This document shows positions 1,503-24,593 of a stretch of DNA of 47,584 nucleotides, piece by piece. The DNA lies in NCBI GenBank assembly GCA_947589385.1, contig CANPZW010000013.1, forward strand, positions 1-47,584, read 5' to 3'. A program made the position numbers and the translations under genes. The notes below the pieces were generated by a model, which worked only from the letters and a program-made list of their open reading frames with translations, had not been told where the DNA came from and did not search any database. Source of the stretch: an uncultured Clostridia bacterium (GTDB lineage: Bacteria; Bacillota; Clostridia; Christensenellales; Borkfalkiaceae). Position 1 is the stretch's first letter. Each line of letters starts with the position of its first letter.

Positions 1503-1531
1503 AAACACCTCTAAATCAATAATCGTATTAA

Positions 1532-1737: not shown

Positions 1738-1741
1738 TGAA

Positions 1742-1837
1742 ATGGGCATTTTTGATTGGATTTTCGGCGCGGACGACTCCGAAGAAAGCCAATTTGAAGA
1801 TATGATACTGATGGACATGGACGACGAGGACGAGTAA
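1742..1837 (+). CDS. Acidic 31-residue microprotein heading the defence operon
   Basis: A 31-codon open frame starting MGIFDWIFG after a well-spaced CGGAGG and ending 20 nt before the helicase ATG. After a short hydrophobic, Trp-containing start, it is almost all Asp, Glu and Met: close to half of its residues are acidic and there is no Lys or Arg. The good ribosome site, closeness to a -10 box and unbroken spacing into the operon argue for real translation. No family recognised. Possible roles are a DNA-mimic inhibitor of the nuclease-helicase, a membrane-peripheral peptide, or a leader setting expression of the downstream genes; none is proven. Confidence 0.5.
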   Translation: MGIFDWIFGADDSEESQFEDMILMDMDDEDE

Positions 1838-1857
1838 CTTTTGTTAAGGAGAAATTT

Positions 1858-8000: not shown

Positions 8001-8496
8001 TAAAGGAACATATATCAGACCAACTTTCGATAAACATATTCTTAAAACACAACTCCCCACCCGATATGAGGAATCATGTAAAGAGAAAATCATAGTTGGG
8101 GGAATGTGCAAGGTTTTGGAATGCTATTATGACAAAGGAATGTGCTTGGCGGGGAAAAGCACGGTTATTATATTTGACTCATCTATGCCATTAGCTTGCC
8201 TATTGTCAATATTAAATAGTAAACTTATGAGTTTTTATTATCAAAACCATTTTTCTTCATTATCTTTGGCTGGAGGTTTTTATAGATTTGGCACACCACA
8301 AATTAAACTTCTGCCAATTCCGAACTTACCAGAAGATGTGATTAAACAGCTTGTAAAATTAGCATTTGAAGTAATCGAACAAATGAGTGGCAATAATGCT
8401 TGCAATAAGCAGATTGATGAAATCGACCATATAATTTATAGTTTATATGGCTTAACCCCTGAAGAAATCGCCCTCGTGGAAAATACGGTGAAGTAA
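5020..8496 (+). CDS. Large N6-adenine DNA methyltransferase (Eco57I-like) with C-terminal specificity region
   Basis: 1158 aa. Motif I DPAVGSGAF begins at D532 (SAM binding) and the catalytic motif IV NPPY at N777, the NPPY class that methylates adenine N6. The first ~400 residues are a helical region typical of type IIG/PglX-size enzymes; no PD-(D/E)XK site was recognised, so cleavage probably comes from the partner helicase-nuclease. Residues about 785-1140 form the likely target-recognition region. DNA coding for that part (about 7376-8440) is strikingly more AT-rich than the rest, then the last ~15 codons return to the earlier composition, as expected for a swapped specificity module. GGAGG lies 5 nt before the ATG, next to the preceding stop. 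Confidence 0.85.
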   Translation: MEYANLLTECLQSPFNIGNYRKFIVNFLNGTTLREISGMRSAELFAEYSFYVEGFALVGDYVDPKGKRVGIFAVKLKPGRDIEKARSKQRNFIARLLADYNLDAALAAFYLNEETKWRLSFVRLDYEFLKGKVAKSITPAKRYSYLVGKDEPCHTAQESLLPIFEAENFRPTIDSIEQAFSIEKVTKQFFEKYKEKYLQLKEYLENTPCFVEEANIRKFTTEQFAKKLMGQIVFMYFLQKKGWLGVKAIKQTITASEYKKLFWYSAKTREFAPRLYTQINDNTYKLNQAVLTSLSDEEEKLIAMAIKGEPWGTGSRTFMRDLFNFAMKKNANFFDDFLEPLFYEGMNRQRDADNYFPHLHCRIPFLNGGLFEELGHYDWRNNAFRIPNEMFSNIAEKGAREADGILDIFDRYNFTMNEDEPLEKEVAVDPEMLGKIFENLLDVTDRKSKGAFYTPREIVHYMCQESLTNYLVNTVGTPYEDTKDFVLYGEIMKDEDCSREAIYGFSVMQLPDSIYKNLKAIDDALADVRIADPAVGSGAFPMGMLSEIVKLRNIITEYMARDLIKKPEFANWKHDQKVFSMVNIERWKLRNYQRNAYKLKQETIRNSIYAVDIEPSAVDIAKLRLWLTLVVEQEIDPNDSENDSPLTLPNLDCNIMCGNSLIDEFEGIDLSFDSVLFGNNGQGTIWGGGIDTDLERLFVAEHDYFYANTRDKKIKYADAISEIKGRLINLAFTSADTQKRERFNEALSSASTPFFLWKLNFAKVFKDKGGFDIVIGNPPYVDSETMTRNMKEARENYTKLYKVAKGNWDLFLLFIELGIKLLKTNGINSFILPNKLIAANYAKATRKLMSEYDIKGIRDYSDVKVFDAAAVYPIVYILIKSHELNFSVIEKMQSVEECLYKRTIEQTLFRKSASWDQFLVNDENITKILSKMDSNVPLSEFATVKGAATVDEAYTIKDNLSEQEYNEEKNFKFINTGTIDQYKTTWATDKTTYIKGTYIRPTFDKHILKTQLPTRYEESCKEKIIVGGMCKVLECYYDKGMCLAGKSTVIIFDSSMPLACLLSILNSKLMSFYYQNHFSSLSLAGGFYRFGTPQIKLLPIPNLPEDVIKQLVKLAFEVIEQMSGNNACNKQIDEIDHIIYSLYGLTPEEIALVENTVK

Positions 8497-8515
8497 TTAA
8501 AAGGATTTTGTTATT

Positions 8516-9526
8516 ATGAAGTTAAAGCAGATGATTGGACTCGGCAAATTGTATAAAATGTTCAAAGGCAAAGATTATGATTATGAAGCCTTAAAAAATA
8601 ATGAGATTTTTCTTGCATACCCTTCTACTTTTAATGATCCTTTTGATTGTTTTATAAGTTTTTTAAAGGACGATTTTGAGCGAGAGTTTCTTAAGCTAAA
8701 ACTTCCAAAAGAAAAATATTTGGAGATTCTTCAGAGTGTTAATCAGGTAACTTTTTCGTGGATGAGAATTTTAGAACATAATAAATGCTGTCAACATGTT
8801 AAACCATTTCCTTTTGTTTCAGCGTTGACAAGCCCGGAAACAGATAAACTTGAAAAAGAATGTTGGGATTTATATGACAAATATTATAAAGAACTTTCAA
8901 AGATAAGAAATCAGTATGGCATCGTTTGTTTTACTAAAAATGAACCGGCTAAAAATATGGTAATGTGGGCGCATTATGCAGACAATTATAAAGGCTTTTG
9001 CGCACAGTATGCTTTAAGTAATTCAAGTGATTTGTGTTCCAAACAAAGACGAGACGAATACACTTTTAACCTATTAAAACATATGGGCAAAGTTCATTAT
9101 AGAGATGGTGCAGTAAAAATTGATTGTGAAAAGATATTAAAAATTCCACCTGCAAAATTAGCGACAAATCCTTACATAAAAAATTATATAAAGCGAATTT
9201 TGTTTACAAAGAATAAACAGTGGAATTATGAAAACGAATATAGATTGGTATTAAAAAAGAGTGATTTTAAAATAATAAATGAAACCAGCAATGGGTTTTC
9301 GATAAGATTTCCTTATGTTGAAAAAGTGTATATAGAGCGTGGTGAAAATAAATTATCATTAAAACATAATTCAATAGATGAAATTACTAAAGAACTTGAA
9401 GTCGATTGCGATTTTTTAGTGCCGTCAAATGAATGGATAACTTTAGAAACAGCAGAAACACATAAAAACAGCGATCCTCTCGGACTGAAAGAAGTGCAAA
9501 TAGATTATACTAATATCCCATTTTAA
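8516..9526 (+). CDS. DUF2971 family protein
   Basis: 336 aa. Recognised by family motifs: FLAYPSTFNDPFD (residues about 32-44), IVCFTKNEPAKNMVMWAHYADNYKGFC split across 136-162, and W.YENEYRLV near 240. DUF2971 proteins are cytosolic, have no assigned biochemical activity, and are common next to restriction and other defence genes. This one begins 19 nt after the methyltransferase stop with a weak AAAGGA site, so it is probably an operon member. The gene is AT-rich like the methyltransferase specificity region, suggesting both came from another source. Its role, whether effector, sensor or passenger, is unknown. Confidence 0.75.
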   Translation: MKLKQMIGLGKLYKMFKGKDYDYEALKNNEIFLAYPSTFNDPFDCFISFLKDDFEREFLKLKLPKEKYLEILQSVNQVTFSWMRILEHNKCCQHVKPFPFVSALTSPETDKLEKECWDLYDKYYKELSKIRNQYGIVCFTKNEPAKNMVMWAHYADNYKGFCAQYALSNSSDLCSKQRRDEYTFNLLKHMGKVHYRDGAVKIDCEKILKIPPAKLATNPYIKNYIKRILFTKNKQWNYENEYRLVLKKSDFKIINETSNGFSIRFPYVEKVYIERGENKLSLKHNSIDEITKELEVDCDFLVPSNEWITLETAETHKNSDPLGLKEVQIDYTNIPF

Positions 9527-9539
9527 TGGAGAAAAAAAT

Positions 9540-10058
9540 ATGCCGTTATGGTTTGAATGGATACTTTCGATAACTTCTTTAATTGCTAACGTTATGGTAA
9601 TAAGCGGTATAGCCGTTTATTTAAATAATCGACCAGCAAAACGAAAATTTCTGCTTACCAATATAGCCATTGACAATCCCGAACCTTGTACGGGGAATGA
9701 AATTTTAAGTAAACAAAAAATTAAAATATGGTTTTATAATAAGACAAACTCTCAATTCTATATAAATCGAATCAATTTATATGACATTGGAGCGATTGAG
9801 CATTTGCGTAATTTTAGGCATGAAGATGAGTTAAAAGATATTCATAATTATTCTTCTGTATATTATAGTGAAGATGGGCATAATAACCCCACTATAAATG
9901 TTTGCGTTAATCCTTGTTCGCCTTGTGTTATTGACGGCTATTTGCTACTTGACGAGGGAGAGCAATTACCTGAACAAATCACTCTTGTAGTAGTTACCGC
10001 TACAAAGAAAATATTTAAATATGATATTCATACAGTAGCGCAGCATGAGTTGACGTAA
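9540..10058 (+). CDS. Small single-pass membrane protein of the defence operon
   Basis: 172 aa, start supported by GGAG 7 nt upstream and only 13 nt after the DUF2971 gene. Residues about 5-27 form one hydrophobic helix (WILSITSLIANVMVISGIAV) followed by NNRPAKRK, giving an N-out or signal-anchor form with a soluble domain of ~140 residues. That domain has many beta-prone stretches (IKIWFYNK, FYINRINLYDIG, ITLVVVTATKKIF) and two Cys-rich turns (CVNPCSPCV). No family recognised. Its place as last gene of the operon and its AT-rich DNA match the DUF2971 gene, so the two may be an accessory pair added to the nuclease/methylase core. Confidence 0.6.
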   Translation: MPLWFEWILSITSLIANVMVISGIAVYLNNRPAKRKFLLTNIAIDNPEPCTGNEILSKQKIKIWFYNKTNSQFYINRINLYDIGAIEHLRNFRHEDELKDIHNYSSVYYSEDGHNNPTINVCVNPCSPCVIDGYLLLDEGEQLPEQITLVVVTATKKIFKYDIHTVAQHELT

Positions 10059-10748
10059 CTGTTGTAGAAGCCATTGTTTAATTAACGATATTTGAGTTTA
10101 TATAAAAATATGAGGGCGAAGTACGCCCTTGCCGCTATTTGGTGGCATTATGATGAGAAGTATGTCCTACTTCTCACTCGGCAAAAAGGGTTGCCGAGCT
10201 GCCTCGCACTTTTACAAGGTCAAGACGGATCTTATTGTTTTTTCGGTGTGTGAGGTTGGGCTTTATTGCTGTGCAATTTTTTAGAAAAAATTTTTTAATT
10301 TGCTGAAATTTTCAGTAATTTTTTTATCTAATTATATGAAGGGCATTGTTCCCCTCAAAGCAGGAATTATGAGATAATCTTAAATCAAAACTTTATAGAA
10401 TGGTTGACCCCCATAGAGCAATTTGAAGTTGCTAAATACGGTTAAAGTCGGTGATTTGCAAATGGCAGTCAGCGGCTTTTTCGTTGTTTTTTTCAAGTCA
10501 ATTACCGTTACTTTGAACGGTAAAATAAAAATATTTTAGGATATGAATAATGCAAATTAGACCGCCATAACAAGTAAAATCTACATACCGAATGAACGCC
10601 GATTACACACCGAAGTTACTAAACAGCTCACTGCAAGGGCGAACGAAACTTATGGAGCGAAGCGCAACTAAGTGTAGTGAGCTACACTTCCGCAGGAAGT
10701 TAGCGGTAATTCAGCATTTATCCAAATTTAAAACAGGAGGAAAAATTT
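10059..10748 (+). other. Structured non-coding stretch upstream of the relaxase (possible oriT region)
   Basis: 690 nt with no credible gene. It contains four hairpins in 10,113-10,250: AGGGCG/CGCCCT (10,113-10,129), a 9-bp perfect stem (10,154-10,176), an 8-bp perfect stem directly abutting it (10,177-10,198), and an imperfect outer pairing CCTCGCAC (10,202) with GTGTGAGG (about 10,243). A second pair of hairpins lies at 10,670-10,700. MobV relaxases normally nick near their own gene, so an origin of transfer is likely somewhere here, but no known nick sequence was recognised. Confidence 0.4.
10670..10700 (+). promoter_or_regulatory. Two overlapping, mutually exclusive hairpins before the relaxase
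   Basis: AAGTGTAG-TGAG-CTACACTT (10,670-10,689) and ACTTCC-GCA-GGAAGT (10,686-10,700) share 10,686-10,689, so only one can form fully. They end 35 nt before the AGGAGG of the relaxase gene; an attenuator or nick-site structure is possible. Confidence 0.4.
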
Positions 10749-11699
10749 ATTTCATATTTAGTTTGTCATATGGAAAAGTACACTCGGCAGGAGGTCTCGC
10801 CCGTCGAGAGAGAAAACGAAAGAGACGAGAATTACGAAGCTACAAATCCACAAATAGATAGTAGCCGCACAAACCAAAACTACCACTTAAAACGCCCGCA
10901 GGGCAGTTATATCGAGATGATAAACGAGAGACTGTCCCAGCTAACTTTAAAACGCAAGTTGAGGTCTGACGCAGTCTATATGGATTCGTTTGTGTTAGGC
11001 TCGGACAGAGAGTTTTTCGGCTGTTTAACCGAGGGTCAACAAAAAGAATTTTTTTGGGACTGCTTGGACTTCTTCTCGGAAAAATACGGCTATGAAAATA
11101 TTTTATCTGCCGTAGTCCACAAGGACGAAACAACCCCTCATCTTCACCTCAACATAGTGCCGATAGTCAACGGCAAGTTGTGTTCAAAGGACTTGTTCGA
11201 CAGGCAGAAGCTCTCTCAGCTTCAAACGGAGTTCTATGAGAAGGTCGGCAAAAAATGGGGACTTCAACGCGGCAAGGAAGGAAGCACTGCAAAGCACCTC
11301 AACACAGCAGAGTTTAAGGCAAAGAAAATAATCGAGGATGCGGAGCAACAAGCGCAGGAATATCTAGACGGAGTACACTCCTCTATTGCCGAGGCGCAAA
11401 ATCAGCCGTTGCCAAAAAAGAAAAAAGAGGTTGCGGAAGAAATAACTTCTCTGCGTAAAGACAACGCCGCATATAAGCAACAGCTTGAAATTAAGAATAG
11501 GGATTCAAAAGACCTATTCAATCTTGTGCAGGAACAGGAGCGAAAATTGCGGACTTCGGAGAAAGCGTACAGAATGGTAACCGACATAATAGAAACCTAT
11601 CCCGACGAGTTTGAGGCACTCCTTTCAAAGGCGCGCCAAAAGAAAAATCCGCCTGCCTATTTTAACGGAAATCGCAAAGGCGGCGGTAACGCGAAGTAA
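10749..11699 (+). CDS. MobV-family relaxase (Pre/Mob plasmid recombination enzyme type), apparent ATT start
   Basis: Family marks: an N-terminal ISYLVCHMEKY segment, a TNQNYHL motif near residue 45, and the metal-binding HKDETTPHLHLNIVPI (about 124-137, counted from the ATT). The C-terminal third is a charged coiled-coil region. The protein nicks oriT and leads the strand during mobilization. The conserved N-terminus reads through seven codons upstream of the first ATG (10,770); the only initiator there is ATT at 10,749, 8 nt after a perfect AGGAGG. Starting at ATG would delete the conserved SYLVCH part. So either AUU initiation or a decayed start codon is indicated. Length is near 316 aa, short for the family but otherwise intact. 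Confidence 0.8.
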   Translation: MSYLVCHMEKYTRQEVSPVERENERDENYEATNPQIDSSRTNQNYHLKRPQGSYIEMINERLSQLTLKRKLRSDAVYMDSFVLGSDREFFGCLTEGQQKEFFWDCLDFFSEKYGYENILSAVVHKDETTPHLHLNIVPIVNGKLCSKDLFDRQKLSQLQTEFYEKVGKKWGLQRGKEGSTAKHLNTAEFKAKKIIEDAEQQAQEYLDGVHSSIAEAQNQPLPKKKKEVAEEITSLRKDNAAYKQQLEIKNRDSKDLFNLVQEQERKLRTSEKAYRMVTDIIETYPDEFEALLSKARQKKNPPAYFNGNRKGGGNAK

Positions 11700-11745
11700 C
11701 AACTGAATAAGTTTATAAGGAGGTAAATTTATAAGATAATTTTAA

Positions 11746-11934
11746 ATGTCGAGACGGAAAAAGAACACCACGGGAATACCCGATTTTGAAATCGATTCGC
11801 TTGCAAGAGCATTACTGCCCGCCATTCAACAATTATTTGAAACGGAAGAAGGCAAAAAGGAGTTTGCGGCTTGGCAAGCCGAACGGCAACAACGACAACT
11901 GAATAATAAAAATCAAAATAAAGAGTCCCATTGA
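11746..11934 (+). CDS. Small protein following the relaxase gene
   Basis: 62 aa, strongly charged (MSRRKKNTTGIPDFEIDSL at the start), with an acidic-amphipathic helix and a Gln/Asn-rich tail. An in-frame stop directly before the ATG fixes the start; AAGGAGG lies about 25 nt upstream, unusually far, so expression may be weak. It is the last gene before a strong terminator, 46 nt after the relaxase stop, so it shares that transcript. Short Arg/Lys-start proteins like this often follow relaxase genes in Clostridia elements; no function is assigned. Confidence 0.55.
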   Translation: MSRRKKNTTGIPDFEIDSLARALLPAIQQLFETEEGKKEFAAWQAERQQRQLNNKNQNKESH

Positions 11935-11995
11935 TTGCAAGGGATTAGCCTATTATAAATAGGGTCAAGGTTAGCCGTAGGTCCCATAAACGGCT

Positions 11996-12033
11996 GGCGG
12001 GCGGAACGCAATTGTTCCGCCCCGCCTATTTTT
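11996..12033 (+). terminator. Intrinsic terminator after the relaxase operon
   Basis: GCGGAAC/GTTCCGC stem with a GC-rich outer extension (GGCGG/CCGCC), a 6-nt loop, then TATTTTT. Confidence 0.8.
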
Positions 12034-12080
12034 AATGATATAATATCATTATTGACATTTAAAAAAATATGTGTTAGAAT
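12034..12080 (+). promoter_or_regulatory. Promoter with an adjacent 17-bp palindrome
   Basis: TTGACA (12,052-12,057), 17-nt spacer, TAGAAT (12,075-12,080). Directly upstream, 12,034-12,050 is a perfect palindrome, AATGATA-TAA-TATCATT, ending 1 nt before the -35 box; a regulator-binding site is plausible. Confidence 0.65.
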
Positions 12081-12111
12081 TTCTATTGAACAATATTTTT
12101 TGAGGTTACTT

Positions 12112-12660
12112 ATGAAATATTTACGACTTCATGTTGCATTTTCAGGAAATCTAAATAGCATTAACAACATGAAAAAAGCCTTACAAAGAATTGGGGAGGT
12201 GAATCCTTTCAATATAAAGCGTACCACCTTAAGAGTTAATTACATTAAAAAGGAAACACTTAGCGAAAAAGATTATTTTAATCGAGGCATACTTAATGTT
12301 AGAAAAGAGCTGAATAAAAATCTAGGAAAAAACGGAAAATACAAAAACAAAATGATCCGTCTATCCTCTAAAGTAAAAACATCTAATAAAGGAGAAGGAT
12401 TTTGTTCTATATGCGTACCGCACGCGGAGTTTATTAAAATCATTAATGCAACATATACTTTACTATCTAAAGTAGACCCTGCCTTTTGTAAAAAACTTTT
12501 GGATATAGAAATTTTTGCAACATATAAACCTAAATCAATAATTAATAAAGTTTCTAATCAAACTGTTGCTCCGGTTCAAACTCATATTATAAATATGTCT
12601 GAGAGCACTTTATTCAATAAAAAACAGTATAAAGATTTAAAAGATGCGATAAGGAGGTAA
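12112..12660 (+). CDS. Unknown protein, first gene of an AT-rich two-gene operon
   Basis: 182 aa from the ATG preceded by GAGGT 5 nt upstream; an earlier in-frame TTG is the -35 box itself. No family recognised. The protein is Lys/Asn-rich, starts MKYLRLHVAFSGNLNSINNM, and has predicted alpha/beta content in its first ~150 residues (IKRTTLRVNYIKKETLS, GFCSICVPHAEFIKIINATYTLL) and a polar tail. There is no signal peptide or membrane helix. It stops 2 nt before the next gene, whose AAGGAGG overlaps its last codons, so the two are co-translated. Strong AT bias and the position inside the mobile element indicate transferred DNA. A defence or toxin-type pair is possible but not shown. Confidence 0.6.
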   Translation: MKYLRLHVAFSGNLNSINNMKKALQRIGEVNPFNIKRTTLRVNYIKKETLSEKDYFNRGILNVRKELNKNLGKNGKYKNKMIRLSSKVKTSNKGEGFCSICVPHAEFIKIINATYTLLSKVDPAFCKKLLDIEIFATYKPKSIINKVSNQTVAPVQTHIINMSESTLFNKKQYKDLKDAIRR

Positions 12661-12662
12661 TT

Positions 12663-13286
12663 ATGGCAAACTTTCCGAGTAAATGGTTTGATTTTTTAAA
12701 CCAAAAGGAATTAAAGCGGCTAAGACGAGATATAAATAATACATTTTGGTTAAAAATTCAAATAGTCGTATCGTTGATTGTTGCGATTTTTCCTTTAATA
12801 TTTAGTGATAACATTAAAGCACTAAGCATAGAATGTAAAGTTGTCTTATGTGTTGTGTTGAGTTTTATTATAGTTTTGGTATTTATTCTTCCTATAATTA
12901 TAAAAAAACTAAAATTATTGAAATTTAATAATTATATAATTGATGGGAAAATTGCCACAAGCATTTTTGATGAGGAAATAGTTTATAATATTTTGGTAGC
13001 GAGTGAATTTTATGACATATACAATAGCACAATTACAAACAAATTATCTAATGAACTAAAAGAATTTTATAAAATAGAAACAAAATACTATATTAAAACT
13101 GCAATGGAAAAGTTAATTACATTTAGTTCTAATATGGTAAATATTATTGGTAACAAAAAAAATCAGATTCCGCCTGATAGAGTAAAAAATATTACAAATA
13201 TGATTGATATAATTATATATAATATGGGTTTAACAGTTGAACAAGATATACTTGATAGCTATAATAATTTTAAACAAAATATTTAA
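12663..13286 (+). CDS. Unknown two-helix membrane protein, partner of the preceding gene
   Basis: 207 aa with AAGGAGG 4 nt before the ATG. Two hydrophobic helices at about residues 29-48 (LKIQIVVSLIVAIFPLIF) and 60-82 (KVVLCVVLSFIIVLVFILPIII) form a hairpin anchor; the N-terminal 28 residues and the ~125-residue C-terminal helical domain should both be cytosolic. No family recognised. Cytosolic protein plus two-helix membrane protein in one operon is a layout often seen in bacterial defence modules in which the membrane part is the effector; that reading is inference from layout only. Confidence 0.6.
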   Translation: MANFPSKWFDFLNQKELKRLRRDINNTFWLKIQIVVSLIVAIFPLIFSDNIKALSIECKVVLCVVLSFIIVLVFILPIIIKKLKLLKFNNYIIDGKIATSIFDEEIVYNILVASEFYDIYNSTITNKLSNELKEFYKIETKYYIKTAMEKLITFSSNMVNIIGNKKNQIPPDRVKNITNMIDIIIYNMGLTVEQDILDSYNNFKQNI

Positions 13287-13330
13287 TCATTAAGTAAAAT
13301 AGTTTGATTAAATCTATAAAGATGAATCTA

Positions 13331-15935: not shown

Positions 15936-16325
15936 ATGAAAAGTAAACGGCTTTTGCGCTTTTATTACAGTGCCGACGGCTTGGACGAAGCGCTTGACAG
16001 ATTGATTTTGACCTGCGCCTTGAAGTCGGCGGAAGGAGAGGGTAGCGGGGCGCATTATGCCGACAGAATCCTTAAAATAATAGAGGCGAAAGACAGACTT
16101 TCGGAGTTGTGGAATTATCTCGACTTCGTGATAAACGGGTTGAAAATCCGCGACAGGGAAGTTTTAAGGAATTATGCGGCGATGAGAACGGGCATAAAGC
16201 TTTTGCCCGAAGCGGAGCAACGTGGGGTAAAGCGGGCGGTTATCAAATTTACGCGGCATTTCAGGCGCGGGGAGCAATTCACCGAGGGGATAAGGCTAGT
16301 AAACGAATACTACTGCCTGTTTTGA
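15936..16325 (+). CDS. Small basic helical protein of unknown function
   Basis: 129 aa, mostly helical and rich in Arg/Lys, with pattern ...RILKIIEAKDRLSELWNYLDFV, then RDREVLRNYAAMRTG, then RGVKRAVIKFTRHFRRGE. The RDREVL...Y stretch faintly recalls the C-terminal helix-turn-helix of phage late regulators and sigma-like proteins, but this is not enough to assign it. There is no signal or membrane segment. A TATAAT sits about 50 nt upstream (near 15,886); no strong ribosome site is seen. It lies between two exported-protein genes on the other strand and upstream of the terminase, so it could belong to the host or be a relic of the head cassette. Intact. Confidence 0.5.
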   Translation: MKSKRLLRFYYSADGLDEALDRLILTCALKSAEGEGSGAHYADRILKIIEAKDRLSELWNYLDFVINGLKIRDREVLRNYAAMRTGIKLLPEAEQRGVKRAVIKFTRHFRRGEQFTEGIRLVNEYYCLF

Positions 16326-16341: not shown

Positions 16342-17007
16342 TCATTTGTTTTTCAGCCCTTTGCGCTTGCCCGTGAACACAAGAATAACTACTGCCGAGG
16401 CGGCGACGACGGTAATCAAAATGGCGGTGACCAGTTTCGCGTTTCCATCCTGCGGCTCTGCGGCGTCGGTAGAAAATGTAGGCTGCGCGGGAATTTCGTT
16501 CAATGGATAATCGTCGTTCGCGCCCGGGATATACCCAAATTCTCCGTTGTACAGCACGTAGGAATACGCCGCCGCACCTCTGTAATAAACGCCGTAATAC
16601 GCCGCCGTGACGGAAATCTGCAAGCCGGACAAAGAGCCGTCCTGCGGCACGTCCGCCCTTATTACGGCGGTCACGGGGTAATTGAGATACACGTTTTCGG
16701 GCGGGACGGTTACGGGCGTGAGCCCCGATTTCAGGCAGTAGCCCGTGATTTCCGAGTAAAAGCCGTCGTTCTGCGCGTACCGCGCCAGATACCATTCGCC
16801 GTGTTCGACAAGAATTTCCACGCAATAGGTATATGGAACGGCAAAAAGAGCGGTAGCCGTATCCATTTTTTCGCAAAGATAGACGTTGCGCGTGTCCGCG
16901 CGTGCGTATTGCCTGCCGTCCGCGGCACGGGCGGTTTTTACGGGGAACGCCGTAGCCGAAATTATAAAAATTACAATAAGGCATAGCGCTGCCCGCAATA
17001 CTTTCAT
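16342..17007 (-). CDS. Exported single-pass protein with SH3-like domain
   Basis: 221 aa. Signal peptide (residues about 1-28, ending ARAA), an SH3-like region around residues 35-100 (LFAVPYTYCVEILVEHGEWYLARYAQNDGF in part), a second beta-rich region (105-170), a short low-complexity linker, a C-terminal transmembrane helix (LVTAILITVVAASAVVILVF) and a basic tail. Probably surface-located and peptidoglycan-facing. Same plan as the product of 14,397-15,737. A TATAAT at 17,016-17,021 ends 8 nt before the ATG with no ribosome site, again suggesting a leaderless or near-leaderless mRNA. It converges with the small gene at 15,936 and diverges from the terminase gene. Confidence 0.7.
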   Translation of the reverse strand: MKVLRAALCLIVIFIISATAFPVKTARAADGRQYARADTRNVYLCEKMDTATALFAVPYTYCVEILVEHGEWYLARYAQNDGFYSEITGYCLKSGLTPVTVPPENVYLNYPVTAVIRADVPQDGSLSGLQISVTAAYYGVYYRGAAAYSYVLYNGEFGYIPGANDDYPLNEIPAQPTFSTDAAEPQDGNAKLVTAILITVVAASAVVILVFTGKRKGLKNK

Positions 17008-17069: not shown

Positions 17070-18509
17070 ATGCAAAGGGAAGAAATTCTTAAAAGAATAG
17101 CCGAGATAGAAGAGGAACAGAAAAAACGGCGGGAGAGCAACCTTCTGCTGTACTACAACACGGGCAAAAAAAAGCATAAAAAACAGCTTGCCTTCCATAA
17201 ATGCAAAAAGCGCAACCGTTGGGTGTTCGGCGGCAACCGTTCGGGGAAAACCGAGTGCGGGGCGGTGGAATGTCTGTGGCTTCTCCGCGGCTGTCATCCC
17301 TACCGCAAAAACAGGCGGGACGTGTTCGGATGGTGCGTATCTTTGTCGCAACAGGTCCAGCGGGATGTGGCGCAGGCAAAAATTCTGCATTACCTGCCCA
17401 AAAGCTGGATAGCGGATATAGTTATGCTTTCCGGACGTAAGGACAGCCCTGCGGGCGGCGTCATAGACCAGATAAAAATCAAGAACGTATTCGGGGGAAT
17501 TTCCACGCTGGGCTTCAAAAGCTGCGACCAGGGGCGGGAAAAATTTCAGGGTTCGAGTTTGGATTTCGTATGGTTCGACGAAGAGCCGCCGCGAGACATA
17601 TACGAGGAATGTGTAATGCGCGTCATGGACAAGCGGGGGGATATCTTCGGCACGATGACGCCTTTGAAGGGCAAGACGTTCGTCTATAACGAAATCTACC
17701 TGAATGTTCGCAAAAATCCCGAAATATGGCACGAATTTATGACCTGGGACGACAACCCCTTTCTTTCGGGAAAGGAGATTGCGCTTTTGGAAACTGCTAT
17801 GGACGGCAGCGCGCTGGATTCCCGCAGATACGGCAGGTTTTCCGAGGGGAAGGGGCTTGTCTATCCCGAATTTGACGAAAGCGTGCACGTTATAAAGCCG
17901 TTTAAAGTTCCCGAAGAATGGCAGGACGCGATTTCAATCGACCCGGGGCTGAATAACCCGCTTTCGGCGCATTGGTATTGCGTGGATTGGGACGGCAACG
18001 TATATGTGGTGGCAGAGCATTTTGCAAGCGGACGGGACATAGATTTTCACGCGCAGGCGATTTTGGAAATAAGCCGCAAATTGGGCTGGAAAACGGACAG
18101 GCACGGGCGGGTCGGAGCGCTTATAGACAGCGCGGCAAACCAAAGGACGCTGGCTTCGGCGAAGTCGGTTTCCGAACTTTTTTCGGAGCGCGGGATTCTT
18201 GTCAATCCCAACGTCAACAAGGATGTATTTGCGGGTATATCACGCGTAAAAGCCTTCTTAAAGCGGGACAACGGCGAGGGGAACCTGTATATCTTTTCAA
18301 ACTGCGTGAACATGATAGAAGAGTTTAAAGGTTATTTTTGGGCGGGCGGCGACGTACCCGTAAAGCGCGACGACCACTGCATGGACGAGCTGAGATATTA
18401 TATCATGACCCGCCCCCGCGCCCCGGAAAAGAGGGAAGCCGTATCCGACGTGGGCAGGGACAAGCTTAAACGCATAAAGCGTATGCGCCGCCCCATTACG
18501 GGGGAGTAA
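17070..18509 (+). CDS. Phage terminase large subunit (TerL)
   Basis: 479 aa, usual size for TerL. ATPase domain: Walker A GGNRSGKT (54-61), Walker B/DEAH-like VWFDEEP near residue 171, and a GTMTPLKGK coupling motif. RNase H-like nuclease domain from about 285: SIDPGLNNP (first Asp), GALIDSAANQ (middle), and DDHCMDELRYY (last Asp cluster near 442). It pumps and cuts DNA during packaging into the prohead. An AAGGAG occurs ~20 nt upstream of the ATG, far for normal initiation, and no closer in-frame initiator exists. No small terminase subunit is recognised nearby, so substrate choice is unclear. Confidence 0.92.
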   Translation: MQREEILKRIAEIEEEQKKRRESNLLLYYNTGKKKHKKQLAFHKCKKRNRWVFGGNRSGKTECGAVECLWLLRGCHPYRKNRRDVFGWCVSLSQQVQRDVAQAKILHYLPKSWIADIVMLSGRKDSPAGGVIDQIKIKNVFGGISTLGFKSCDQGREKFQGSSLDFVWFDEEPPRDIYEECVMRVMDKRGDIFGTMTPLKGKTFVYNEIYLNVRKNPEIWHEFMTWDDNPFLSGKEIALLETAMDGSALDSRRYGRFSEGKGLVYPEFDESVHVIKPFKVPEEWQDAISIDPGLNNPLSAHWYCVDWDGNVYVVAEHFASGRDIDFHAQAILEISRKLGWKTDRHGRVGALIDSAANQRTLASAKSVSELFSERGILVNPNVNKDVFAGISRVKAFLKRDNGEGNLYIFSNCVNMIEEFKGYFWAGGDVPVKRDDHCMDELRYYIMTRPRAPEKREAVSDVGRDKLKRIKRMRRPITGE

Positions 18510-18563
18510 AAACGCAATACGTATGCGATTAAAGGTAAATTATCGGTAACGGGAGGTGGCAAT

Positions 18564-18812
18564 ATTTCTGATGAGGACAGCGTAAAGCGGGCGCTTATAA
18601 AGTGCGCCACGGGGCTTTCGGCAAGCGAAACGGTGGAGGAGTTCTCCGTCGAAAACGGCGAGCTGAAACTTGTGAAGAAGAAAATCACGAGAAGGGAAAT
18701 TCCGCCCGACATAAAGGCGGTAAAACTGCTTTTGGACGGCAGAGAGGAACTTTCGGACGAAGAGCTCGAAGCCGAGAAGCAAAAACTTATGGATATGTTA
18801 AAGGAGGAATAA
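18564..18812 (+). CDS. Small acidic phage-type protein between terminase and portal, apparent ATT start
   Basis: 82 aa (ISDEDSVKRALIKCATGLSA at the start), Glu/Lys-rich and helical. The frame has no ATG, GTG or TTG before the conserved-looking region; the only initiator in place is ATT at 18,564, 5 nt after GGGAGGTG. Its TAA overlaps the portal ATG by one base (TAATG), the mark of translational coupling, which supports real expression. The frame continues straight from the terminase stop, so readthrough would give a fused protein. Proteins of this size between terL and portal are sometimes head-assembly or small-terminase-like, with residues 11-35 resembling a short helix-turn-helix, but no family is recognised. 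Confidence 0.6.
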   Translation: MSDEDSVKRALIKCATGLSASETVEEFSVENGELKLVKKKITRREIPPDIKAVKLLLDGREELSDEELEAEKQKLMDMLKEE

Positions 18813-20491
18813 TGGAACAAAAAACAAACGAAGAAGAACAAAAGACGGCGGAAGAATTGCTTTGCCGAGAGGTGCTGGACGACTTTACGGAAAGGCAGCG
18901 CAGGCGCAAAAAGCTGGAACGGCAGTGGGAACTTAACCTGAAATTCGTGCAGGGCAACCAATATTGCCGCATAACGGAAGGCGGGGATATCGCGCCGACC
19001 GACAGGCTTTACGAATGGGAGCAAAGGCGGGTTTTCAACCATATAGCGCCCGTGATAGACACGCGGCTTTCCAAGCTTTCGCGCATACGCCCCGCGCTTG
19101 CGGTGCGCCCCGCTTCGGATGAGGAAAACGACAGGCAGGCTTCCGAACTCGCTTCCGCAATCCTTTCCGCGGTGCAGGAGGAAAGCGACCTCGACGGCGT
19201 TATATCTTCCGCCACCATGTGGTCGGAAATATGCGGTACGTCCTTTTATAAAACGGTCTGGGATTCGGCGGGCGGCAAAAAACTCGGCGAAACGGAAAGC
19301 GGCGCAAGCGTGAACGAGGGCGGCGTAAGCGTCGCGGCGGTGTCGCCTTTCGAAATCTACCCTTTCTGCCAGGACGAGGAAAGCCTTGAAATGCAGCCCA
19401 GCATAATTCATGCGAAGCTATTGCCCGTGTCGGAAATTTACACTATGTACGGCGTAAAGCTTGCGGGCAGGGAGCTTCCGGCGTCCGCCCCGTCGCGTTT
19501 CGAATCGGGCGACAGGCAGGAGGGATTCGAGCTGGTTTTGGAAAGGTATGAAAAACCCACGGTTGACCTCCCCGAAGGCAGGCTTACCGTAACGGCAGGC
19601 GAAAGGCTTCTTTACGACGGCGTTCTGCCGTACGTAAACTGCGAAAACGGCACTCGCGGATATCCCTTTGTAAAGCAGGTTTCCGTGCCCGTGGCGGGCA
19701 GTTTTTTCGGCGCGAGCGTTGTGGAAAGGCTTATACCCGTCCAGCGCGCGTACAACGCCGTCAAAAACCGAAAGCACGAATATCTCAACCGCATTTCGAT
19801 GGGCACGGTGGCGGTGGAGGACGGCTCGGTCGATGTTGACGAACTCGCCGACGACGGGCTTGCGCCCGGCAAGGTAATCGTCTATCGGCAGGGCGGAAAT
19901 CCTCCCGAAATGCTCACATTGGGCAGCGTTCCCGACGAATTTTGGAAAGAGGAAAACAGTCTTCTGACCGAATTTTCGAAAATTTCGGGCACGGGCGATA
20001 TTTCGGAGAACGCGGACAGCTTCGCGGGGATAACTTCTGCAACGGGGCTTCAACTGATTATAGAGCAGGACGACGCCCGTCTTAACGTAGCCTATCAAAG
20101 CTTAAAGCGCGCCGTAAGGAGCATAGGGCGGCAGATACTGCGTCTTTACAGGCAATTCGCAACGGACGTACGCCTTTTAAGGCTTGCGCAGAAGGACGGC
20201 AAGGTTAAGGTCTATTGTTTCAAGGGCAGCGATATTTCGGGCGAGGACGTGATTTTGGAGGCGGACACCGACCTTAATCTTTCGCCCGCGCAGAGGCGTT
20301 CGGTTATATTCGACCTGTTGGACAAGGGGCTTTTTTCGGACGCGGACGGAAAAACCCCACAGGCTGCGAAAAAGAAACTTTTGGAGCTTTTGGGCTACGC
20401 GTCGCTTGCCGACCTTATTCCCGCCGAAGAAAAGGGCGGCGCAAAAAAAACCGAGAATGAAGAATATGAAGATAAGGAGAAAAGAAATTGA
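18812..20491 (+). CDS. Phage portal protein, P22-like
   Basis: 559 aa from the ATG preceded by AAGGAGG 5 nt upstream; a longer open frame reaches back but only overlaps the previous gene. Recognised by position after TerL and by portal-like features: an N-terminal basic helical wing, FNHIAPVIDTRLSKLSRIRPAL around 72-95, PFEIYPFCQDEES near 185, the GASVVERLIPVQRAYNAVKNRKHEYLN clip/stem stretch near 300, and SATGLQLIIEQDDARL. It forms the dodecameric ring for DNA entry and joins scaffold, connector and terminase. The tail is a low-complexity Glu/Lys segment. Stop overlaps the scaffold TTG by 4 nt. Confidence 0.88.
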   Translation: MEQKTNEEEQKTAEELLCREVLDDFTERQRRRKKLERQWELNLKFVQGNQYCRITEGGDIAPTDRLYEWEQRRVFNHIAPVIDTRLSKLSRIRPALAVRPASDEENDRQASELASAILSAVQEESDLDGVISSATMWSEICGTSFYKTVWDSAGGKKLGETESGASVNEGGVSVAAVSPFEIYPFCQDEESLEMQPSIIHAKLLPVSEIYTMYGVKLAGRELPASAPSRFESGDRQEGFELVLERYEKPTVDLPEGRLTVTAGERLLYDGVLPYVNCENGTRGYPFVKQVSVPVAGSFFGASVVERLIPVQRAYNAVKNRKHEYLNRISMGTVAVEDGSVDVDELADDGLAPGKVIVYRQGGNPPEMLTLGSVPDEFWKEENSLLTEFSKISGTGDISENADSFAGITSATGLQLIIEQDDARLNVAYQSLKRAVRSIGRQILRLYRQFATDVRLLRLAQKDGKVKVYCFKGSDISGEDVILEADTDLNLSPAQRRSVIFDLLDKGLFSDADGKTPQAAKKKLLELLGYASLADLIPAEEKGGAKKTENEEYEDKEKRN

Positions 20492-20982
20492 CTGACGAAA
20501 ACGCGGTACATACCGAGGATTTTGATAAAAGCAGCCCCGATACGGCTGCGGCGCTTAACGCGCCGGATAGGGAGAACCTTGACGAAGGAGTTTGCGTTGC
20601 GGCGGAAACCGCGGAAGCGGAAAAAGAAGAAAGTAAAGCCGCGCCTGCAACGGGCAAATTCAAAAGCGTCGAAGCCCTGATGTCGGCGTACCTCAATCTG
20701 GAAGCGGAGTTCACCCGGCGCAGCCAGAAACTTAAAGAGCTTGAAGAGAACAAGGCGTGCGAGGCGCCCTCTGTTAAGCGCATTACGGGGGAGGAGCTTC
20801 TGAACGCGGCGCTGGCGGATGAAAACGTCAGGAACGCCGTGGTGGGCGATTATCTCAAAACGGTAATCGCGGGCAAAAGCGTACCCCTGATTGTCGGCGG
20901 CGTGGCTTGCGCCGCACCCGCGTGCGAACCCAAATCCGTAAAGGAAGCGGGCGCGCTCGTAAAACAATTTTTAAAAAAATAA
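20488..20982 (+). CDS. Scaffolding protein of the capsid
   Basis: 164 aa with a TTG start supported by AAGGAG 7 nt upstream and a TTGA overlap with the portal stop. Composition is typical of scaffolds: acidic and Ala/Glu-rich N-terminus, central helix (FKSVEALMSAYLNLEAEFTRRSQKLKELEE, about residues 56-85), and a C-terminal helical end with basic Lys residues (KEAGALVKQFLKK). Its position directly before the capsid gene is the classical scaffold slot. No protease motif is seen, so the scaffold would be released rather than digested, as in P22. Assignment rests on order and composition, not on a conserved motif. Confidence 0.75.
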   Translation: MTDENAVHTEDFDKSSPDTAAALNAPDRENLDEGVCVAAETAEAEKEESKAAPATGKFKSVEALMSAYLNLEAEFTRRSQKLKELEENKACEAPSVKRITGEELLNAALADENVRNAVVGDYLKTVIAGKSVPLIVGGVACAAPACEPKSVKEAGALVKQFLKK

Positions 20983-20997
20983 AGGAGAATTTTATAA

Positions 20998-22149
20998 TTG
21001 ATTACCATTGAAAACGCAGATAAAGCATTGAAAGAATATTACCTTCAAGCCGTAACGGCACAGCTCAACGACAACATTTCCCCTTTCTTTTCGGCAATAG
21101 AAAAGACGGCGGAAAATGTGACAGGCAAGGACGTCAGCATTGCGGTTATCCGCAACAGCATAGACAGCGTGAATGCCTGCGCCGAGGACGCGGACCTGCC
21201 CGAACCCCACAAAAACAGATACCTTAAAATTAGCGTGCCTTTGAAAAACATCTACGGCACAATACAAATCAGCGATAAGGCGCTGCGCGCCTCCCGCGAC
21301 AGCTCGGGCGCTTTCGTAAACCTTGTGAACGCAGAAATGGACGGACTTGTCTCTGGCGCAAAGTATAATTTCCAGCGTATGCTCTACGGCGACGGCACGG
21401 CGAAAATCTGCACCGTATCCTCAGTCGTCGCAGAATCGGACAGCAAGAAATTCAACGTTGACGACGTTTCCAATCTCACCAAGGGCATGCTGGTTGACCT
21501 TATCCGCGCGGACGGCACGAAAGTGGAAAGAATCACCATAACCGACATCAGCGAGAAAGTCATTACTTTGAGCACCGCCATTACGGGCAATGTCGTAAAC
21601 GCGGTAATCGCCAAGGCGGGGGCTTATAAAAACGAACTCACGGGTCTTGCCGCAATTTTCGGCGAAGGCGATTTGTACGGCTACGACAGGGCGGAAGAGC
21701 CTTATTTCAAGCCCTATTCCGCAACGGCGGAGTCGGCGGGCTTTACCGAAGAAAGCATGACGGACGTGCTCGACTATATGGAGCAGAATTTCAACAGCAA
21801 GATAAATATGATTCTCTGCTCGTTCGCCACCCGTAAAAAAATCGCCGCGTTCGTTGCTGCCCGCAAGCTGGTTGCGAACACTATCGACGCGCCTACTGGC
21901 TTCGGAGTGGTTACCGTAAACGGAATACCCGTATATGCCGACAGATTCTGCCCCGACAACACGGTATATTTCGTGAACACGGACGACTTCGTATTAAGCC
22001 AGCTCTGCGATTGGGAGTGGTTGGAGGACGAGGACGGCAAAATTTTAAAGCAGGTTCCCGGCAAGGCGGCGTACAGCGCGACCCTCGTCAAATATGCCGA
22101 GCTCATCTGCAAGAAACCCTGCGGACAGGCAGTTCTGACCATTAGCTGA
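20998..22149 (+). CDS. Major capsid protein, HK97-fold type
   Basis: 383 aa, TTG start with AAGGAG 9 nt upstream. The N-terminal E-loop-like region contains ISDKALRAS, followed by an Ala/Gly-rich alpha-helical core (AEMDGLVSGAKYNFQRMLYGDG). Residues about 130-205 form an inserted beta domain (TKGMLVDLIRADGTKVERIT), then a core A-domain with VTVNGIPVYADRFCPDNTVYFVN, a strand-turn pattern found in HK97-fold coats. No N-terminal prohead protease domain or delta domain is present, consistent with a separate scaffold. It would build the icosahedral shell. Gap to the scaffold is 15 nt, to the connector 7 nt. Confidence 0.85.
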   Translation: MITIENADKALKEYYLQAVTAQLNDNISPFFSAIEKTAENVTGKDVSIAVIRNSIDSVNACAEDADLPEPHKNRYLKISVPLKNIYGTIQISDKALRASRDSSGAFVNLVNAEMDGLVSGAKYNFQRMLYGDGTAKICTVSSVVAESDSKKFNVDDVSNLTKGMLVDLIRADGTKVERITITDISEKVITLSTAITGNVVNAVIAKAGAYKNELTGLAAIFGEGDLYGYDRAEEPYFKPYSATAESAGFTEESMTDVLDYMEQNFNSKINMILCSFATRKKIAAFVAARKLVANTIDAPTGFGVVTVNGIPVYADRFCPDNTVYFVNTDDFVLSQLCDWEWLEDEDGKILKQVPGKAAYSATLVKYAELICKKPCGQAVLTIS

Positions 22150-22156
22150 GGCGGAT

Positions 22157-22714
22157 ATGTCGATTAAAGACGTTATGGTAAGCGCTTTGAGGCGCATAGG
22201 TAGAGAGGAGCTTGCCGCCGACGTCGAGGACGGCGGCGCTCCCGTCGGAGAGGGCGGCGAGGTGGTAAAAACCCTGCTGTACTGCATAAACGCAACCGAG
22301 GATGAGCTCGCAAGGCATTATCTGCCGCTTAAAGCGTCGGAAATCCTGCGTTCCGCCGACAATAAATTCGCATATACGCTTTTTTCGCACACGCCCGTTA
22401 AAATTCTGAATGTGAAAGCGGGCGGCAGAGAAATTCCTTTTACGCTTTCCCCCGATTTTTTTACGGCGGACGCGGCGGAGGCGGAGGTGGAATACCTCTA
22501 TGCCCCCGCTAAAAAGGAATTGGAGGACGAAAGCGAGTTCGGCGAGCTTGCGGACGGAAATCTGACCGCGCTCGGCGCGGCGGCGGAGTACTGCCTTATA
22601 TGCGGTGAAACCGCTATGGCGGAGGTATGGGAAACGCGCTACCGCGCGGCGATAGACAGGGCACGGCGGGAAAGACGTTCCCCCGTATATGTGCCCCCGA
22701 GGAGGTGGGTATAG
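22157..22714 (+). CDS. Head-tail connector/adaptor protein (T7 gp11/P22 gp4-like position)
   Basis: 185 aa, GAGG 4-5 nt upstream of the ATG. The pattern MSIKDVMVSALRRIG, a helix with CINATEDELARHYLPL, a beta hairpin (AEVEYLYAP) and an all-helical C-terminal part (AAAEYCLICGETAMAEVWETRYRAAIDRARR) matches the usual plan of portal-binding connector proteins of podoviruses and siphoviruses. It would sit under the portal ring and close the head after packaging. The last codons hold a strong GAGGAGGTG that drives the next gene. Assignment is by fold-like pattern and gene order. Confidence 0.7.
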   Translation: MSIKDVMVSALRRIGREELAADVEDGGAPVGEGGEVVKTLLYCINATEDELARHYLPLKASEILRSADNKFAYTLFSHTPVKILNVKAGGREIPFTLSPDFFTADAAEAEVEYLYAPAKKELEDESEFGELADGNLTALGAAAEYCLICGETAMAEVWETRYRAAIDRARRERRSPVYVPPRRWV

Positions 22715-23953
22715 TTGGCTTTGAAATATCCCAAATGCGCAAGTGCGCAGGTTGACCTGCTTGCAGGCAAAGACGTTTTCCCCGTGGGCTGCGTTTTAAA
22801 GGACGGAAAGCTTTCGCCCGCATTCAACGCCGTGGATACCTTTCATGCGACGGTAAAAAAGTTGGTATGTCTCAGACAGTCGAACTCCGCAAGCGGCTCG
22901 CTTGCATATTCCAGCGACGGCAAGGTTTATCGCGGGGATAATCTTGACGCTACCGTACTTACGCAGATAGAGACCATGACCGCTTCTTTGCCATTTTTCA
23001 TAGAGCAGAAGAGCGGTACAAGCAACGACCTTGTGCTTCTCGGAAACACGAACTACGTGCGTATGCGCAACGGTGGATATTACAAGGGCGAACTTGCCTC
23101 GTCGTTGCGCTGCGGGACTATAAGGTGCGGCAGATTGTTCGGAATAGACAGAAGCAACGCCTATCTTTTCAAGTGGTCGGGACCGGGGGGATACACCGAT
23201 TGGGAATCAGGCATTTCGGGCGCGGGGCAAGCCTATCTCGAAGAATACGGCGGACAGTCGTGGGAAATTTTCAGCCTCGACGACGAGCTTGTCATCCTGC
23301 GCGAATACGGTATAACGCGTATTTCCGCCGCGGGCGACCCCGAAAACTTCCGTCTTGACGGGGATACCATACCCATTCCCAGCTTTTACAGAAAGACCGC
23401 CGCGCTTGCCGGCGACGGGCTGTATTTTTGTGCGGACGGCGGGCTGTACCGCTACAAGGGCGGCAAAGTCAGCAAGATGGAGGGACTTGTGACGGACGAC
23501 GCCGCCACGCCCATGCTTTCGGCTTCGTATGGGGGCAGATACTATCTTGCGGCAGGCATTTCTTCAAGGCTTTCGAGGAGGGTGGTTTATATCTACGACA
23601 CGGTTGACAAGACTTACCAGGTAGTGGATATTCCCGCTATATGTCTGTCCTCGGACAACCGCTCGATGATAGGCTTTGCCGCGGATACTGCATACCGCAT
23701 ACAAAATACGGGGGAATACTCCTTTTCCTGTGGGGAATTTGATTTCGGCTCACATTCGAGAAAACTTCTTACGTCGCTTGAAGCCGACTGTGACGAGGGC
23801 GTGGAAGTAAGCATATCCAACGGCAGATTCACGCGCACAGTCACTGCTGGCGGAAAGACGAGGCTTAACATGCGCGGCGTAAGTTTTTCGGTGACGGTGA
23901 GCGGCTCGGGCGAGGTGCGCTCGCTGAAACTGAACGCGGAGGTGCGCAAATGA
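22715..23953 (+). CDS. Beta-propeller nozzle/stabilization-like protein
   Basis: 412 aa, TTG start 7-8 nt after a GAGGAGGTG site and touching the previous stop. The sequence has repeated blade-like strands: LAYSSDGKVYRGD, DLVLLGNTNYVRMR, DELVILREYGITRI, GDGLYFCADGGLYRYKGG, RRVVYIYDTVDKTYQVV. Such propellers form the tail nozzle of short-tailed phages (T7 gp12, P22 gp10), which fits its place after the connector. At 412 residues it lies near P22 gp10 in size. No receptor-binding or needle domain is attached. Its end overlaps the next ATG in an ATGA junction. Confidence 0.6.
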   Translation: MALKYPKCASAQVDLLAGKDVFPVGCVLKDGKLSPAFNAVDTFHATVKKLVCLRQSNSASGSLAYSSDGKVYRGDNLDATVLTQIETMTASLPFFIEQKSGTSNDLVLLGNTNYVRMRNGGYYKGELASSLRCGTIRCGRLFGIDRSNAYLFKWSGPGGYTDWESGISGAGQAYLEEYGGQSWEIFSLDDELVILREYGITRISAAGDPENFRLDGDTIPIPSFYRKTAALAGDGLYFCADGGLYRYKGGKVSKMEGLVTDDAATPMLSASYGGRYYLAAGISSRLSRRVVYIYDTVDKTYQVVDIPAICLSSDNRSMIGFAADTAYRIQNTGEYSFSCGEFDFGSHSRKLLTSLEADCDEGVEVSISNGRFTRTVTAGGKTRLNMRGVSFSVTVSGSGEVRSLKLNAEVRK

Positions 23954-24435
23954 CTTTCGATATTGTAACCTTTTCGCAGGAACAGCTCGACGCCCTTTCA
24001 AACGTGCAGATGCAGCTTCTGCGCACGGCGCAAAAGAACAAGAACAAGCTCCAACACGATATGGAGAATGATTTGGCTCTGTTCAAAAAGTTGCTTCTCA
24101 CAAACGGTATGTACAATTCCACGTTGTACTCGCAAAAGGAAGCGGCGTTGCTCGCGGAATTCAACTATCAGGTCGAGATACTCAAAGAACAGCTTTTGTA
24201 CGCGCTGTCGATAAACGAACCATTTCCCGACCAGGAAGCCGACCAGGAAAAAGTGGGGTATATCGTCGATTATTCGCTGTCCTATACGGAGCGCTATGCG
24301 ATTGTGCGGGAGTATTATCTTGCGCTCGACGCAGCGACGAGAATGAATTTATACACCAACGACGACGTAGCAAAGCGCTATCTCGGCAATTACTACACAA
24401 CCCTTTACAACGTGCTATACACTTACAGCCAATAG
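23950..24435 (+). CDS. Last gene of the head cassette, helical protein of unknown function
   Basis: 161 aa. Coiled-coil-like helices at residues about 8-60 (QEQLDALSNVQMQLLRTAQKN onward) and 65-90, then a Tyr-rich second half (YIVDYSLSYTERYAIVREYYLAL and YLGNYYTTLYNVLYTYSQ at the end). No signal peptide, membrane segment or enzyme motif. By position after the nozzle-like gene it could be an internal, ejection or tail-tip protein; its short length and Tyr-rich tail fit none of the known families that I recognise. The transcript ends at a strong terminator 124 nt later. Confidence 0.55.
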   Translation: MTFDIVTFSQEQLDALSNVQMQLLRTAQKNKNKLQHDMENDLALFKKLLLTNGMYNSTLYSQKEAALLAEFNYQVEILKEQLLYALSINEPFPDQEADQEKVGYIVDYSLSYTERYAIVREYYLALDAATRMNLYTNDDVAKRYLGNYYTTLYNVLYTYSQ

Positions 24436-24558
24436 CCGCGGATTTTCGGGCGGGTAAACCGTTTTCTAAGCGAAACCCTAAGGAGGGAGCGGGGGCTTTC
24501 GATTTAATTAAAGGCAGTTTAAGGGTTTAAACTTTACGGAACATGGGCTCGGCGGCGG

Positions 24559-24593
24559 GGCGGCGGCGGAATTTTCCGCCGCCGCCTTTTTTT
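24559..24593 (+). terminator. Strong terminator closing the head cassette
   Basis: 13-bp perfect stem (GGCGGCGGCGGAA with its complement), 2-nt loop, then seven T. Confidence 0.9.

Follow-up and report, generated by a model that had tools for sequence, protein, structure and literature searches.

Positions 17070 to 24435 of contig CANPZW010000013.1, from the assembly GCA_947589385.1 of an uncultured Clostridia bacterium, hold eight forward genes for the head and packaging machinery of a podovirus-type particle. With a probability of roughly three in four, we consider this cluster to be the core of an old, host-domesticated and vertically inherited lineage of podovirus-type gene transfer agents (GTAs). 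A GTA of this kind is already known; what would be new is the host lineage, and a much wider one. The window, that is, the whole stretch of 47,584 nucleotides analysed, is contig 13 of a genome of 1.53 Mb that is 97.65% complete, and we take the order of its host to be the Christensenellales. If the reading is true, capsid-borne gene exchange would be an old trait in this order of uncultured gut Clostridia.

Gene content, inheritance and selection of the cluster

The eight genes are contiguous and tightly packed, no frame is broken, and an intrinsic terminator with 14 pairs and a T-run follows on the same strand (24557-24588), as a preliminary description of this DNA had stated. The packaging, portal and capsid functions that it proposed are borne out by family matches for the large terminase TerL, an ATPase and nuclease (17070-18509; phrog_2 with 1.1e-32, Terminase_6N and conserved motifs), for a portal of the P22/SU10 type (18812-20491; phrog_156 with 7.8e-34, P22_portal with 2.5e-18, and SU10_portal) and for the major capsid protein (20998-22149; phrog_14242 with 4.9e-40, and SU10_MCP below the cut-off). 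A gene resembling the small terminase TerS (about 18567-18812) lies between TerL and portal. The scaffold-like protein (20488-20982) is named from its conserved position between portal and capsid and gave no convincing family match, and the putative connector or adaptor (22157-22714) from its position and a SU10_adaptor match below the cut-off (E 0.021). They are followed by the tail nozzle (22715-23953) and a helical protein, a short relative of DUF7934 (23950-24435). The base composition is host-like, as noted before, with a GC content of 0.50-0.57 in the cluster versus 0.49-0.56 in the 5 kb downstream. Also in agreement with the preliminary description, a family search with nine proteins of the cluster gave no recognisable gene for an integrase, a repressor, replication, lysis or a fibre. 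As expected of a GTA, phage-derived structural genes are thus encoded by the host with no replication or integration genes at the locus, both in the window and in the order-level loci. The integrase, repressor or replication genes and the variable location typical of a prophage or satellite were not found; in loci of the genus type the location is fixed. Among the relatives retrieved with TerL are records under the names Candidatus Coproplasma and uncultured Clostridia.

The cluster of genus-type loci has the same neighbours immediately on either side, so that a prophage with the cluster as one end would not fit in between; identical flanks across species had been proposed as a check and are what we observed. 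TerL has the upstream gene up_sec221 beside it in 58 of 58 loci of the genus type and in 37 of 42 order-level loci. Downstream, RlmI is found within 2.5 kb in 38 of 46 genus-type loci under a strict rule, and in the remaining 8 it is directly next, overlapping owing to extension of the open reading frame (ORF). Among the order-level loci, which were fetched by capsid matches, 53 of 55 hold at least five core genes, and gene order and strand are identical in all 53. In two genomes of f23 g37, the upstream genes up129 and up_sec221 stand with TerL about 43-53 kb from the portal-capsid block.

The trees follow the hosts. The capsid tree requires 17 changes of host-family label versus a minimum of 15 and a mean of 49.4 after shuffling, with two changes each for f1, f6 and f17 and three for f23. 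In the combined tree of TerL, portal and capsid, a quick search that left out 20 of 73 rows (5 phage rows, and 15 host-locus rows in which a gene was missing or short), the 12 changes equal the minimum, the shuffled mean being 32.7; only f23 needs two changes. Family f1 forms one clade in this tree with a Shimodaira-Hasegawa-like approximate likelihood ratio test (SH-aLRT) value of 100, and the branch to the three phage or prophage rows also has an SH-aLRT of 100. Synteny and trees indicate that the cluster is vertically inherited and conserved in the host clade, as expected of a GTA.

Within the genus, 84 of 93 genomes (56 of the 61 good ones) carry the capsid gene, and within the family 190 of 201 genomes at a completeness of at least 90% do so (187 of the 197 good ones; 15 of 15 genera). 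A single match was obtained in 184 of the 190 positive family genomes and two matches in 6. A sample of the order gave 244 of 395 genomes (243 of 393 good ones) and 70 of 135 genera, and the carriers include genomes as small as 0.8 Mb. A class sample gave 30 of 392 genomes, 23 of them from the same order; the others were three genomes of family f62 with a related capsid and four with distant capsids, two of whose three loci that were read lie in prophage-like clusters. As a side observation, the f62 loci L141 and L142 (G669 and G687) contain a smaller cluster that comprises scaffold-like, capsid and c17-like genes, plus a nozzle-like gene in L142, and no TerL or portal match within 19.5 kb; they are perhaps a split GTA in another lineage. 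Capsid genes in tandem pairs were seen in L135 (8035-10379), L202 and L217.

A mobile phage, satellite or capsid-forming island caught in the integrated state would account for the phage-type genes, and IMG/VR lists such pieces as viral contigs. We regard this as very improbable: position and flanks are constant across species, the trees follow the hosts, no integrase was recognised at the locus, and a search for the capsid in plasmids gave zero matches. The constant gene order and neighbours, together with the lack of plasmid matches, also led us to reject a mobile satellite. In IMG/VR, the viral contigs found by capsid (L177-L230) in many cases look like pieces of the same cluster, and 15 of the 54 carry up129 or up_sec221, the genes that adjoin it in host genomes.

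The ratio of nonsynonymous to synonymous substitution rates (dN/dS) had been proposed as a further check and is far below 1. Between the window and its nearest relative L032 it was 0.034 for TerL, 0 for the TerS-like gene, 0.023 for capsid, 0.106 for portal, 0.149 for connector and 0.071 for the last gene, so that six of the eight cluster genes lie within 0.00-0.15; the neighbouring RlmI and RluD genes gave 0.116 and 0.051, respectively. Three further pairs gave 0.034-0.080 for TerL and 0.093-0.133 for capsid. The head genes are therefore under purifying selection, as expected of a GTA. Counting as intact any copy of at least 75% of the median length, with copies touching a contig end skipped and phage or prophage rows and L219-L230 left out, we obtained near-full-length frames in 140 of 143 copies of TerL, 156 of 168 of the TerS-like gene, 167 of 168 of portal, 158 of 170 of scaffold, 166 of 167 of capsid, 150 of 151 of connector and 140 of 144 of nozzle, in a set biased by its being fetched through TerL or capsid matches. 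TerL is split over two frames in L247, and portal likewise in L210.

The preliminary description had wavered between a very recent remnant and a maintained particle. A decaying prophage remnant would be in keeping with the failure to recognise lysis, integration and replication genes and with the deletion of the cluster in some relatives, but the nearly complete frames of TerL, portal and capsid and the low dN/dS make it scarcely credible. A recent remnant was rejected on the grounds of the family-wide capsid gene, the host-following trees and the low dN/dS. The first half of the earlier alternative thus falls, also in view of the synteny across species, genera and families, and the second, a maintained GTA or domesticated capsid, stands.

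Terminase, nozzle and proposed mode of action

The motor motifs of TerL are conserved. In 149 sequences, a Walker-B-like DEEP and two acidic nuclease positions are kept in all, a third acidic nuclease position is kept in 148 (one gap), and Walker A varies only between S and T; we presume the usual Walker-type and nuclease roles for these residues.

In contrast to the preliminary description, in which no small terminase was recognisable, the ORF of 81 amino acids between TerL and portal can be recognised as TerS-like through its relatives. It has no in-frame ATG, GTG or TTG start, and on reading the sequence an ATT was found after GGAGG at 18567, with a similar pattern in L036; ATT is probably the start codon. 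Although the window's own ORF gave zero matches in a direct family search, it aligns throughout with its relatives. Of 14 aligned members, 8 match phrog_309 (best 3.7e-07) and 3 match phrog_23444 at E <=0.1, and both families are annotated 'terminase small subunit'. When full ORFs were used, phrog_309 was matched by 9 of 10 relatives, and every match fell within positions 189-261 of 319, so that the N-terminal part of the family, a possible seat of the helix-turn-helix (HTH), is missing. A tblastn search of phages with one relative's TerS-like protein gave zero matches. The gene lies downstream of TerL in the window, upstream of it in L256, L281 and L282, and overlaps the TerL start in L139. 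The TerS of RcGTA, the GTA of Rhodobacter capsulatus, apparently has no N-terminal DNA-binding domain, and in the part of the source covered here this was proposed as a defining trait of GTA small terminases (PMC6854486). Likewise, the TerS of the Faecalibacterium GTA (FpGTA) is described, in the covered sections, as having no obvious DNA-binding domain (PMC12946183).

The nozzle gave zero family matches by sequence. Its AlphaFold model, with a predicted local distance difference test (pLDDT) value of 92.7 and a predicted TM-score (pTM) of 0.90, matches podovirus nozzles in Foldseek, the best being that of Pseudomonas phage Pa223 (E 3e-17, TM-score 0.72 by query), followed by Sf6 gp8, Pan3, GP4 and P22, and the earlier designation of a nozzle-like protein is thereby supported. 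Sequence searches of the PDB with the nozzle and capsid profiles returned nothing convincing. Within the nozzle gene (22715-23800), DNA divergence from L032 reaches 35-37%, whereas the preceding part of the cluster diverges by 1-7%, the last gene by 8-11%, and RlmI and RluD by 2-6%. The synonymous divergence (dS) of the nozzle gene is 1.34 versus 0.03-0.32 in the other cluster genes. Since both values are far above those of the rest of the cluster, the allele has probably been exchanged. Over 49 genus-type loci the mean identity is 27% for the nozzle, 75.5% for TerL, 57% for capsid and 73.5% for RlmI, a variability that fits a part that would meet other cells.

The same variability, with alleles that differ between near relatives as would be expected of a target-binding part, could speak for a PBSX-like weapon, a domesticated particle, filled with host DNA or left empty, that would bind to kin by its nozzle and kill with no gene transfer; the failure to recognise fibre or delivery genes at the locus points the same way. 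However, no toxin, immunity or contractile-tail gene was recognised among the cluster proteins, and the form of TerS points to non-specific packaging, so we hold the weapon to be unlikely. A domesticated capsid with a role inside the cell, such as DNA storage or protection, and no release seems to us more unlikely still: no lysis gene was recognised at the locus in the genus, as this alternative would have it, but a conserved nozzle and connector make little sense if nothing is released, and holins adjoin the cluster in other families.

By profile-profile comparison, the last protein is related to a DUF7934 protein encoded after the nozzle in other families (hhalign probability 96.6, E 5.1e-10). 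Its model is helical, and a fold search gave no PDB match at E <=0.001. Within the class, 37 of 293 genomes match DUF7934, only 3 of them above the cut-off.

As a GTA, the system might work as follows. An upstream phage-type activator or another host signal would switch it on, and the capsid would assemble on the portal. Together with a TerS that hardly discriminates between sequences, TerL would act as the motor and package any host DNA at hand, and connector and nozzle would close the particle. Particles would leave by lysis, for which no genes were found at the locus in the family, and the fast-evolving nozzle would contact recipient cells, in which uptake of the ComEC type and recombination could take in the delivered DNA.

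Upstream genes, losses and islands

Upstream of TerL, up129 (15936-16325, forward strand) has relatives in other families that resemble phage-type transcription activators or sigma region 4 proteins: at E <=0.5, 7 of 15 aligned members match phrog_36 'transcriptional regulator' (best 4.8e-15) and 5 of 15 match Sigma70_r4_2 (best 3.2e-10). It is probably a phage-type regulator belonging to the unit. The divergent up_sec221 (16342-17007, reverse strand) has no Pfam match and shows by eye a hydrophobic N-terminal stretch and a C-terminal segment; probably this membrane-anchored-looking protein belongs to the unit as well, which would extend the unit upstream over both genes. In 198 genomes of the order, up_sec221 and capsid occur together in 86, capsid alone in 23, up_sec221 alone in 4 and neither in 85, the significance of this association being inflated by the relatedness of the genomes. 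At the cut of E <=1e-15 used here, weak upstream matches, mostly in f3 and f6, count as absent, and 21 of the 23 capsid-only genomes show a weak up_sec221 match. Of the genomes in which up_sec221 occurs alone, G251 shows matches to TerL, DUF7934 and holin in the vicinity and G342 one to a holin, whereas the G296 contig breaks off next to up_sec221. Clusters of other families carry in addition the small genes c17 and c19, a full DUF7934 gene and a BhlA-type holin; no such holin was seen beside the cluster in 11 f1 loci scanned.

The unit has been lost or interrupted in some genomes. Of the 11 family genomes with no capsid match, 2 have a whole TerL, 3 a cut one and 6 no TerL. In two of these six, the close relatives G016 and G017, the gene up447 now adjoins RlmI, and up129, the last gene and all that lies between them have disappeared from that place, a span that suggests the limits of the unit. 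In the other four, RlmI was not found, or stands at the start of a contig, or lacks up447 in its vicinity. In G031 (L283, 5558-13797), an island of 8.2 kb takes the place of everything between TerL codon 278 and capsid codon 340, and the frames of connector, nozzle and last gene are still open. The cargo of this island comprises a C5 DNA methyltransferase, the Thoeris gene ThsA and two ThsB genes, besides proteins of 772 and 259 amino acids with no Pfam or PADLOC match. Since no integrase or transposase was recognised in it, its mobility is deduced from shared ends. The left junction recurs in G065 and G066 of the same genus and in G126, G142 and G146 of genus g4, the right one in G051 and G066; both ends stand on one contig only in G031, the only island read through. 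Searching 221 family genomes for the left-end pattern with at most one mismatch gave 8 matches versus 12 for a reversed control, so the match count by itself proves nothing. The exact matches (G031, G066, G126, G142 and G146) nevertheless all fall on codon 278 of TerL, unlike the three inexact ones. In G146 the junction is on one contig and the intact stretch on another, with identical sequence over about 77 bases before the junction, which suggests that island and intact alleles coexist in one population, a binning mixture being the other possibility.

These observations, and several others, weigh against a working GTA. The loss in G016 and G017 and the interruption by the island in seven genomes (the six named for the left junction, G031 included, and G051) mark the unit as dispensable. 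The capsid gene is absent from 150 of the 393 good genomes of the order sample, among them all sampled genomes of f4, f10, f19, f20 and f25, so that it is either ancestral in the order and lost in some lines, or entered a large sub-clade. The dN/dS of the nozzle is 0.199, and scaffold gave 0.475 on few changes (dS 0.031). The window's own up129 showed no HTH and no match at E <=0.5, and G238 has a gene of the up_sec221 type although its surroundings, 19 kb in all, hold none of the cluster genes. At the window's locus neither a lysis nor a fibre gene was recognised, and a genome-wide search for Holin_BhlA, the sole lysis family covered in this way, was negative in all 30 genomes of the genus. 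The window's genome has ComEC, and so do 115 of 120 genomes of the order, with or without the cluster; being near-universal, it offers no specific support.

It is possible, though we would not favour it, that a working podovirus-type GTA is inherited through much of the order and exploited by site-specific mobile islands, which would break TerL and capsid at fixed codons, swap head genes for cargo (Thoeris, DNA methyltransferase) and persist alongside the intact allele within a single population as a polymorphism of producers and non-producers. Intact and interrupted alleles would make the persistence of GTAs despite the killing of producers testable in natural populations.

Known systems and other observations

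The podoviruses P22, Sf6 and SU10 share the portal family and nozzle fold with the window cluster but, unlike it, are full phages, and the best capsid match to an isolated phage is only 26.9% identical. RcGTA differs by its long siphovirus-type tail and alphaproteobacterial host, and PBSX of Bacillus subtilis by its contractile tail, genes for which were not recognised in the window cluster. Faecalibacterium, the host of FpGTA, presumably belongs to another order than the window's host. The likeness to RcGTA lies in a host-kept cluster and possibly, in the part of the source covered here, in the TerS trait given above (PMC6854486), and that to PBSX in a host-kept phage-like element of a Gram-positive bacterium, as named in the covered sections of PMC12946183. 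FpGTA, which was compared by description and not by sequence, shares with the window cluster a podovirus-type head operon of a possible TerS, TerL, portal, scaffold and capsid, encoded by the host with no replication genes, and in the sections covered it is reported from all twelve Faecalibacterium genomes examined (PMC12946183). As described there, FpGTA differs in having TerS upstream of TerL rather than downstream, in a second operon devoted to fibre, receptor binding and lysis, no gene for which was seen at the window's locus (with one holin family searched genome-wide), and in particles shown to contain about 9 kb of DNA, whereas the window cluster is known through its genes (PMC12946183).

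According to the same sections, most of the formally recognised GTAs come from Alphaproteobacteria and Brachyspira, and FpGTA is called the first with podovirus-like morphology (PMC12946183). They also report GTA-like DNA packaging in Christensenellaceae (3 of 25 events) and name GTA operons for Faecalibacterium and, within the part covered, for no Christensenellaceae (PMC12946183). The cluster is a candidate cause of that packaging. No other account of it turned up in the literature, preprints being outside the scope of the search.

Elsewhere in the window, positions 1-13300 are mostly of low GC and lie beside a tRNA cluster; judging from the sequence, we take them to hold large genes resembling those of helicases and methyltransferases, besides one for a MobV-like relaxase.

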